A DNA stretch of 64,000 nucleotides, taken from positions 1 through 64,000 of IMG/VR virus record IMGVR_UViG_3300044701_002172; one strand, given 5' to 3'. The notes beneath the pieces are model-generated. The model ran no database searches, was not told where the DNA came from, and was given only the letters and a program-made list of their open reading frames with translations. The translations under genes were made by a program, and so were the position numbers. Position 1 is the stretch's first letter; every line of letters begins with the position of its first letter. This document shows positions 11,066 through 13,231 of this stretch, one piece after another. The stretch is from a virus.

Positions 11066-11428
11066 TTACATACGAGAGTAACAGACACGAACAACCCCTG
11101 ATCCTGGAGAAGCGATTTTAGTAAACGCTCCATAAGATAGATCAAGAGATCGTCCACCCACAAATGGTCCACGATCATTCACACGAACAATGACAGATTT
11201 GCCATTCGATTGGTTAGTCACCCGCAACCTAGTTCCGAAAGGAAGGCTTCTGTGTGCTGTTGAATGACCGTAAGCATTATATCTTTCTCCGTTAGCGGTG
11301 GTTAAACCGTGATATCCATCACCGACTCCATAATGTGAGGCGAGGGAACATCCGCTCGCTGCCTTTGCTTGAAGGGGTGCCAGTCCTACAGTGGCAATGG
11401 CTAGAATTGAAAGTGTTTTAAAAAGCAT
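11066..11428 (-). CDS. RlpA-like double-psi beta-barrel protein, exported
   Basis: A 120-aa exported protein with signal peptide MLFKTLSILAIATVGLAPLQAKA and a compact double-psi beta-barrel. Family marks are SHYGVGDGYHGLTTANGERYNAYG, LPFGTRLRVTN and VRVNDRGPFVGGRSLDLSYGAF, including the conserved Asp-Arg-Gly-Pro of RlpA. Bacterial RlpA acts on stripped peptidoglycan in the periplasm. Here it could help loosen the wall before release, although an early-type promoter lies upstream. It has only the barrel, no SPOR domain. Neighbouring genes include lysozyme and peptidase. Confidence 0.9.
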   Translation of the reverse strand: MLFKTLSILAIATVGLAPLQAKAASGCSLASHYGVGDGYHGLTTANGERYNAYGHSTAHRSLPFGTRLRVTNQSNGKSVIVRVNDRGPFVGGRSLDLSYGAFTKIASPGSGVVRVCYSRM

Positions 11429-11827: not shown

Positions 11828-12063
11828 AATTTAATTTAACCAAACTTATTTTTATAGTTTGTTTTTCTACTGTTGGATTTGTTGGGTTAAATTTCATTGC
11901 CTGTAATTTCATGTTACCAGGATCAATCATTAGTGCTAATGTTCTTGGGGGATTAAAAAACCCCCCTCCTTTAGATTGTAAGGAATCTGAAAGAAGAGGG
12001 TATGAAACTTTATTAACTATTCTCACTACAGTAATTGCTCTACGAGCTAAGGTAGAAGATTAA
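11824..12063 (+). CDS. Small membrane protein, 79 aa
   Basis: A 79-aa protein with one strong N-terminal membrane segment (LIFIVCFSTVGFVGLNFIA) followed by Cys27. This could be a lipoprotein-type site, although the -3 residue is Phe. The C-terminal part (DCKESERRGYETLLTILTTVIALRAKVED) is helical. The topology resembles a small spanin or other envelope protein, but I cannot assign it. It is coupled to the 63-aa gene and ends tail to tail with the lysozyme frame (4-nt overlap of stops). Confidence 0.65.
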   Translation: MKFNLTKLIFIVCFSTVGFVGLNFIACNFMLPGSIISANVLGGLKNPPPLDCKESERRGYETLLTILTTVIALRAKVED

Positions 12064-12530
12064 GAAACCCAGAGTTTACCCTCTGCCTTTCTTCTTCTAA
12101 GTAGTCCTGCCTCTACATTACTACCAGGATTACGATACATCTCTAGAACTTTAGGAACGTCGTTCCATTTTTGATCTTTTAAGATACGAGTGATAGTATT
12201 AAAATTCCCAGAACCATAGAAATTAGCGCCGAGATTATAAGCAAAAGATAATAATGCTCCACGTTGATTGTCATTCATCTCACTCCAATAAGGAATTTTT
12301 TGTAGGGCAGGTAAGAATCTATGCTCAACATCATACATCAGATATTCATCTGCTTGCTGTTGAGTAATAAACTGACCTAACATAAAGGTAGATCCATCTG
12401 GTCTACGAGTGCTTCCCCATCCTATTGTAATAGGAGCAGCACCTGTTTTGGGATCTGGGTATGCTTTTAAATGACAACCTTCAAACTCTTTGATTAGTTC
12501 TAGCCCTCGATGAGGAATAGAACTTACTAC
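12060..12530 (-). CDS. GH24 phage lysozyme domain, reached by -1 frameshift
   Basis: T4-type lysozyme that cuts peptidoglycan. The frame has 156 codons: EFEGCHLKAYPDPKTGAAPITIGWGS holds the catalytic Glu17, Asp26 and Thr35 (same Glu-Asp spacing as T4 lysozyme), and the C-terminal lobe (NQRGALLSFAYNLG...LLRRRKAEGKLW) is complete. The only ATG (12383) lies 49 codons in, after the catalytic site. Upstream there is no ATG, GTG or TTG before a stop. The frame joins the C39-like peptidase gene by -1 slip at A_AAA_AAG (12530-12536). Alternatives are an ATT start at about 12518 or a one-base sequence error in the A6 run. Confidence 0.85.
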   Translation of the reverse strand, partial: VVSSIPHRGLELIKEFEGCHLKAYPDPKTGAAPITIGWGSTRRPDGSTFMLGQFITQQQADEYLMYDVEHRFLPALQKIPYWSEMNDNQRGALLSFAYNLGANFYGSGNFNTITRILKDQKWNDVPKVLEMYRNPGSNVEAGLLRRRKAEGKLWVS

Positions 12531-12536
12531 TTTTTT
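12496..12536 (-). promoter_or_regulatory. Probable -1 ribosomal frameshift signal
   Basis: On the minus strand the peptidase frame reads GTA AAA AAG TAG, giving the heptamer A_AAA_AAG (12530-12536) as in E. coli dnaX. After a 5-nt spacer comes a stem-loop (12496-12524): AGTTCTA pairs with TAGAACT and the inner CCTC pairs with GAGG around a 3-nt loop. A slip of -1 avoids the TAG and enters the lysozyme frame exactly. Confidence 0.7.
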
Positions 12537-13231
12537 ACGGCGTCAAAAACTCTACCCCAACCATCATTGCCTTTTGGGCACCATCTACGTGCCAACTCAG
12601 ATCGTTTGTATACCGCTCCTCTACCATTGGTAACAGGACCCGTATAGCCATCGTTAAGGCTTCCATACGGGTCATGAACGATGTAGTCTCCAGCGGGGGT
12701 CTTCCCAATCACAACACACATGTGGCCTCCTGTAGGAGCACTGAGAGGTCCCCTGTGAAGGATGCCAATTACCATTGGACGATTTGCTGCTAATTCTTTA
12801 TCGAGATCAGCAAATGACAAATCATATTTGAATGCAGATTTAATACCATACCCCATCAAGACACGAGTTTGTACAGTATGATCGGTTGTATCCCCAGCAG
12901 CAAATACTTTCTGAACATAAGCATCGTCACCTTTAGGACCTTTCAGTGTGCCTGGTTTAAAATATTCAAGACACATAGCACAAGCAGAACTATTACAAGT
13001 TCGTTGAGCATCACGATAATTATCTGTTTGAGGGAACCAAGGGAAGTTTTCAAGAATATTAGTTGCTTGTTTTTGAACTGATGTTCTGTATGTTTTAACC
13101 CAACCAGAAGTATCTTCTAATTCTTCTGGGGCTGATTTTTCCAAAGCATGAAAAAACATTTCAACTGCTTTTACGTGATTGGGATTCTTCTCATCAAAAT
13201 GTTTAAAGAAGTTATGTAAATTAATTTTCAT
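12527..13231 (-). CDS. C39-like cysteine peptidase, N-terminal part of lysin
   Basis: A 234-aa protein with a papain-like peptidase_C39_2-type domain. Cys79 (AQRTCNSSACAMCL), His170 (TGGHMCVVIG) and Asp187 (YIVHDPYGSL) form the likely triad. In a lysis locus the natural substrate is peptide cross-links of the cell wall. Residues 1-50 are helical and charged. The ATG overlaps the nuclease stop (ATGA). The gene ends at a TAG inside a frameshift signal; if ribosomes slip, the product is a roughly 390-aa peptidase-lysozyme fusion. A late promoter upstream of the nuclease would cover the operon. Confidence 0.85.
   Translation of the reverse strand: MKINLHNFFKHFDEKNPNHVKAVEMFFHALEKSAPEELEDTSGWVKTYRTSVQKQATNILENFPWFPQTDNYRDAQRTCNSSACAMCLEYFKPGTLKGPKGDDAYVQKVFAAGDTTDHTVQTRVLMGYGIKSAFKYDLSFADLDKELAANRPMVIGILHRGPLSAPTGGHMCVVIGKTPAGDYIVHDPYGSLNDGYTGPVTNGRGAVYKRSELARRWCPKGNDGWGRVFDAVKK

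Follow-up and report, generated by a model that had tools for sequence, protein, structure and literature searches.

The locus raises the question of how the GH24 lysozyme on the minus strand of virus record IMGVR_UViG_3300044701_002172 can be translated. In the window, i.e. the whole stretch of 64,000 nt that was analysed, a peptidase ORF ends in GTA AAA AAG TAG and the lysozyme lies in the -1 frame relative to it (Table 1). This open frame spans 12542-12060 (160 codons). The earliest ATG, GTG or TTG in it is found at codon 54 (ATG at 12383), and the codons for the catalytic Glu21, Asp30 and Thr39 all precede it, so that a start at this position would give an inactive lysozyme fragment. The original prediction had described a peptidase ending in AAA AAG TAG on the heptamer A_AAA_AAG, a stem-loop 5 nt further on and a complete GH24 domain without any such start before Glu, Asp and Thr, and the window sequence confirmed these points. 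The hairpin has 12 of 13 positions paired and a loop of 3 nt. Because a TGA shuts the -1 frame just upstream, a slip would be possible only in the last few peptidase codons. The slipped product would read KK and then VVSSIPHRGLELIKEFEG..., continuing for 156 codons to a TAA to make up a fusion of 390 aa. For the 66 nt 3' of the heptamer we calculated a folding energy of -14.5 kcal/mol with a z-score of -1.9, values for a single sequence that indicate a moderately stable stem only. It is from the relatives rather than from the window by itself that the junction appears to be more than a chance arrangement. A further AAAAAAGTAA elsewhere in the record (124529) was considered and set aside, as it lies at no evident gene junction.

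Table 1. Coordinates of the features at the peptidase-lysozyme junction in the window.
Feature	Position	Strand	Remarks
C39-like (papain-fold) cysteine peptidase, 234 aa, 0-frame product	12527..13231	-	PF13529, E 1.5e-10
Slippery heptamer A_AAA_AAG (putative)	12530..12536	-	in phase with peptidase ORF 13231-12527
0-frame UAG stop, immediately 3' of heptamer	12527..12529	-	
Stem-loop	12496..12524	-	5' arm 12524-12512, loop 12511-12509, 3' arm 12508-12496
TGA shutting the -1 frame just 5' of heptamer	12543..12545	-	sequence
-1-frame GH24 lysozyme	12060..12530	-	PF00959, E 2.3e-23; post-slip part 156 codons to TAA
First ATG of lysozyme frame, 3' of active-site codons	12381..12383	-	

Both proteins are predicted cell-wall enzymes. 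The lysozyme matched the GH24 profile above the cut-off with the Glu-Asp-Thr catalytic set present, and its E21, D30 and T39 are invariant in 37 relatives, as are Q68, C79, H170 and D187 of the peptidase. The C39-like assignment of the latter comes from the profile search; a PDB sequence search with the peptidase gave no match, but a fold search did, the predicted fold (pLDDT 84.6) resembling PDB structures of C39-like and papain-like peptidases (E 5.9e-5 and TM 0.46 for the best). The median dN/dS was 0.18 for the peptidase and 0.22 for the -1-frame lysozyme, which is thus under purifying selection. Adjoining the lysin pair on the minus strand (11066-11428) is a small protein of the DPBB_1 (RlpA-like) type whose N-terminus resembles a signal peptide, possibly another cell-wall enzyme.

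To compare junctions we scanned IMG/VR with the lysozyme, the peptidase and the ACG-2014f peptidase, and included isolate genomes, which together gave several hundred loci; the three scans without selection on the junction comprise 136 distinct junctions. As a set selected by pattern would make heptamer conservation circular, conservation counts were taken only from scans unselected on the junction. In these, A_AAA_AAG is present in 62 of 62 overlaps that offer no start at the stop of the peptidase, compared to 4 of 53 junctions at which a slip is unnecessary, the ATG overlapping the stop, the genes being separate or the lysozyme missing (Fisher 3e-28 with sequences counted as independent, a figure that kinship among them weakens). 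On the peptidase tree the junction type is scattered and has changed at least 29 times. Loci with the peptidase only had no heptamer (0/19), and among the other Lys-Lys pairs of the same genes none is encoded as A_AAA_AAG (0/73). All scans taken together yielded 109 distinct heptamer junctions from IMG/VR and the isolate S-PM2, forming 76 clusters at 90% nucleotide identity. The -1 frame runs on without a stop in all 109, and TAG, TAA or TGA abuts the 3' end of the heptamer in 100 of them. In 59 of the 76 cluster representatives a -1-frame stop is found three codons before the slip codon. The putative slip signal is a conserved feature of numerous viruses infecting marine and freshwater cyanobacteria.

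This conservation bears on the possibility that the frame break is an assembly or sequencing error, or that the lysozyme has decayed. The window stems from a metagenome virus record and rare A7 variants do occur, but over 100 independent junctions have this A6 run, as do both genome records of S-PM2, the lysozyme has a dN/dS of 0.22 and its active site is invariant. Sequencing error and pseudogene are therefore ruled out for practical purposes, their probability being negligible, and with them falls the indel that the original prediction had kept as a way out.

Regarding the stem-loop, its onset lies about 5 nt past the heptamer in nearly all heptamer junctions, with most helices starting 2-8 nt past it. 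The mean folding z-score of the 66 nt 3' of the heptamer is -2.8, as opposed to -0.2 in 13 control junctions in which the lysozyme has its own start. The 5' arm is located in a variable linker, while the 3' arm falls into the coding sequence of xGVxLIKEFEG, the conserved motif with which the lysozyme begins. Exchanging the 3' arms between loci lowered the mean helix score from 25.3 to 15.5; the pairing sum of the loci's own arms was not attained in any of 20,000 arm permutations. In one stem register 93.7% of cells are paired, compared to 37-52% when the partner was slid; for the same register, 500 shuffles never attained the covariation score, and GC/AU and UA/CG are among its double changes. 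In the two remaining registers, AU/GC, CG/UA and CG/GC exchanges occur. Such a hairpin at the end of a gene might have another role, as transcription terminator, RNase site or protein binding site, with the heptamer being incidental. However, at 12496-12524 we found neither a terminator-like site nor an Rfam match, and the presence of the hairpin is tied to that of the heptamer and to the absence of a start, which leaves this explanation only a very slim chance. No internal Shine-Dalgarno-like stimulator stands out clearly; a GGGG about 15-20 nt 5' of the heptamer is conserved, but is part of a conserved Trp-Gly protein motif common to loci without frameshift.

Where the heptamer is missing, the lysozyme ATG overlaps the stop, both domains are fused in a single ORF, the two genes are apart, or there is no lysozyme. 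Thirteen such loci use an ATG that overlaps the stop, which makes it conceivable that a free lysozyme is also made in the window, by termination-reinitiation or from a rare start codon such as AUU at 12518. Against this, in all 62 start-less junctions the stretch from the peptidase stop to the catalytic Glu is devoid of ATG, and in 38 of them it contains no GTG or TTG either, so that a start codon inside the lysozyme frame was discarded; the alternative start that the original prediction had left as an escape is not borne out. A free start would moreover leave the invariant heptamer and the covarying stem unexplained, and the stem is gone in three loci in which the heptamer is accompanied by an ATG overlapping the stop (L072, L083, L132). 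Two loci with an ATG a few nt past the stop retain it (L055, L269). Overall, we regard independent initiation as highly improbable.

A single reading frame can also arise from the homopolymer itself. Two loci (L310, L316) have A7 instead of A6, which puts peptidase and lysozyme into one frame, and stem sequences remain. These natural single-ORF forms, together with the position of the A run right at the junction, speak for transcriptional slippage, in which RNA polymerase would add or drop an A in the A6 run and give rise to mRNAs with both domains in frame. This is the main rival, although a less likely one, because phase, final G and RNA stem are all conserved. Polymerase slippage usually needs runs of 8-9 or more, and A6 is short by this measure; the expected signature of tandem tRNA slippage is the one seen here, with a fixed G, an in-phase wobble-type heptamer, a spacer of 5 nt and an mRNA stem with covariation. 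We thus give polymerase slippage a small chance, the largest among the competing explanations.

Among isolates, S-PM2 carries GCA AAA AAG TAA followed by a stem; the sequence is the same in both of its genome records, of which the second comes from a spontaneous deletion mutant. The S-PM2 annotation lists a hypothetical protein and a 'putative lysin' that starts past the active site. In three isolates of S-CAM7 (L086, L360, L361) the junction reads GTT TTT TTT CCA CAG TAG, i.e. T_TTT_TTT, 5 nt and a strong stem; the frame offset is likewise -1, the protein junction is the same as in the window, and the annotated 'lysin' is again a fragment beginning 3' of the active site. In S-SRM01 the heptamer is followed by CAATGA and thus by an overlapping ATG start. 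ACG-2014f has a single ORF of 405 aa, yet A_AAA_AAG TCTGA and a GGAGGG...CCCTCC-type stem are present. Such a fused 0-frame ORF with A_AAA_AAG was found throughout the ACG-2014f group (L085, L090, L283-L285, L362, L363) and in L064, with the stem about 5 nt past the heptamer and a -1-frame UGA two codons on. Related fused contigs (L287-L292) are without the heptamer, so the heptamer of ACG-2014f may have been retained by chance in a Lys-rich linker.

The original prediction had counted a single uninterrupted ORF or a clear lysozyme start in relatives against frameshifting. Such relatives do exist (ACG-2014f, L287-L292, the A7 loci, and those with an overlapping ATG), but in the scans unselected on the junction every start-less overlap keeps the slip site. 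The single-ORF and overlapping-ATG forms are alternative solutions, scattered over the peptidase tree, and as some relatives have one fused ORF or a lysozyme ATG of their own, frameshifting is dispensable. Two further arrangements were noted. In S-CREM1 (L084) and L033 the domain order is reversed with GH24 5' of the C39-like peptidase, in S-CREM1 within one annotated ORF. Peptidase-only loci (L095-L142) carry a conserved element ATAAGTTTTATAAATATCCC...CTTGACAAC...GTGTTAAGATT just past the peptidase stop, which includes TATAAATA, similar in appearance to a T4-like late promoter and followed by sigma70-like -35/-10 sequences.

Taken together, dnaX-type programmed -1 ribosomal frameshifting yielding a peptidase and a peptidase-lysozyme is the best explanation and very probably the correct one, in line with the original prediction, which is strongly supported by related cyanophages, since these conserve the heptamer, the stem and the frame offset. 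What carries this reading are features of the sequences: heptamer, stem, spacing, frame, the missing lysozyme start, conservation and selection. Ribosomes on the peptidase mRNA would meet A_AAA_AAG with the stem-loop a few nt ahead. The majority would terminate at the adjacent UAG and release the 26-kDa peptidase, while in a fraction both Lys-tRNAs would re-pair one base back (AAA AAA) and then read GUA GUA AGU..., giving the peptidase-GH24 fusion of about 44 kDa. Slippage at this site and its efficiency are what we infer from the signal; the lysozyme would be made only as the minority fusion partner of the peptidase, both products presumably serving lysis, and the ratio between them may tune it. 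Slippage on A_AAA_AAG is favoured where only tRNA-Lys(UUU) is present; the window contains no tRNA-Lys gene. In E. coli A_AAA_AAG ranks among the most slip-prone heptamers and stimulators usually start 5-8 nt downstream, rules that the heptamer and the spacing of the structure in the window fit (PMC4066793, PMC5009743). It is also possible, though we hold it to be rather doubtful, that the phages keep the product pair while the frame giving each product flips, the ratio being held by one signal used in two opposite ways and, in S-CAM7, by T_TTT_TTT as a second heptamer. ACG-2014f and L064 would then make the fusion in frame, and a -1 slip would lead straight to the UGA and yield the peptidase alone.

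If it works, the signal would determine how much of a lysis enzyme abundant cyanophages make. It would explain the truncated 'lysins' without active site in S-PM2, S-CAM7 and protein-family libraries and supply the missing full-length lysin sequence for many genomes. PHROG 3617 (405 aa, 'unknown function') corresponds to the fused form, and PHROG 10457 and 7910 match the truncated lysozyme tail only; these two families and the S-PM2 and S-CAM7 fragments probably lack the active site because the frameshift was left unannotated. In addition, the loci with heptamer and stem, with heptamer and ATG, with a fused ORF and with the swapped arrangement form natural contrasts in which the value of a frameshift ratio could be probed.

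In the literature surveyed, programmed frameshifts of phages concern mainly tail and capsid genes, and our search of this literature found no report of a frameshift in a cyanophage lysin. While dnaX-type frameshifting is known, its use on a peptidase-lysozyme pair is apparently unreported. Two products or frames per lysin are likewise seen in several phages: slippage was proposed for the lysin of Lactobacillus phage Sabazios, in which a slippery site was not found (PMC7260188), CD27L/CTP1L are cited in a passage of the same paper as the subunit pair of a dimeric lysin, and an L. lactis phage lysin lies in two overlapping genes (Shearman 1994, according to a passage in PMC10885494). In the lambda-type G/GT tail chaperones and the T7/T3/A2/PSA capsid frameshifts a -1 slip also adds a C-terminal domain to a fraction of the protein, but these are virion and tail assembly genes, whereas the cyanophage pair consists of predicted cell-wall enzymes. 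IS3-family OrfA-OrfB, with A_AAA_AAG and a stem-loop or pseudoknot, joins two separately encoded domains as well and has the same heptamer class and spacing; it belongs to a transposon, unlike the cyanophage junction, and host and function differ. The closest likeness in the signal is to E. coli dnaX (tau/gamma), with the same A_AAA_AAG, a stem a few nt 3' and two products with a common N-terminus. In dnaX, however, the slip shortens the product, a polarity that ACG-2014f and L064 resemble with their in-frame fusion and slip to UGA, whereas in the window it is reversed and the cyanophage slip would add a whole enzyme domain.
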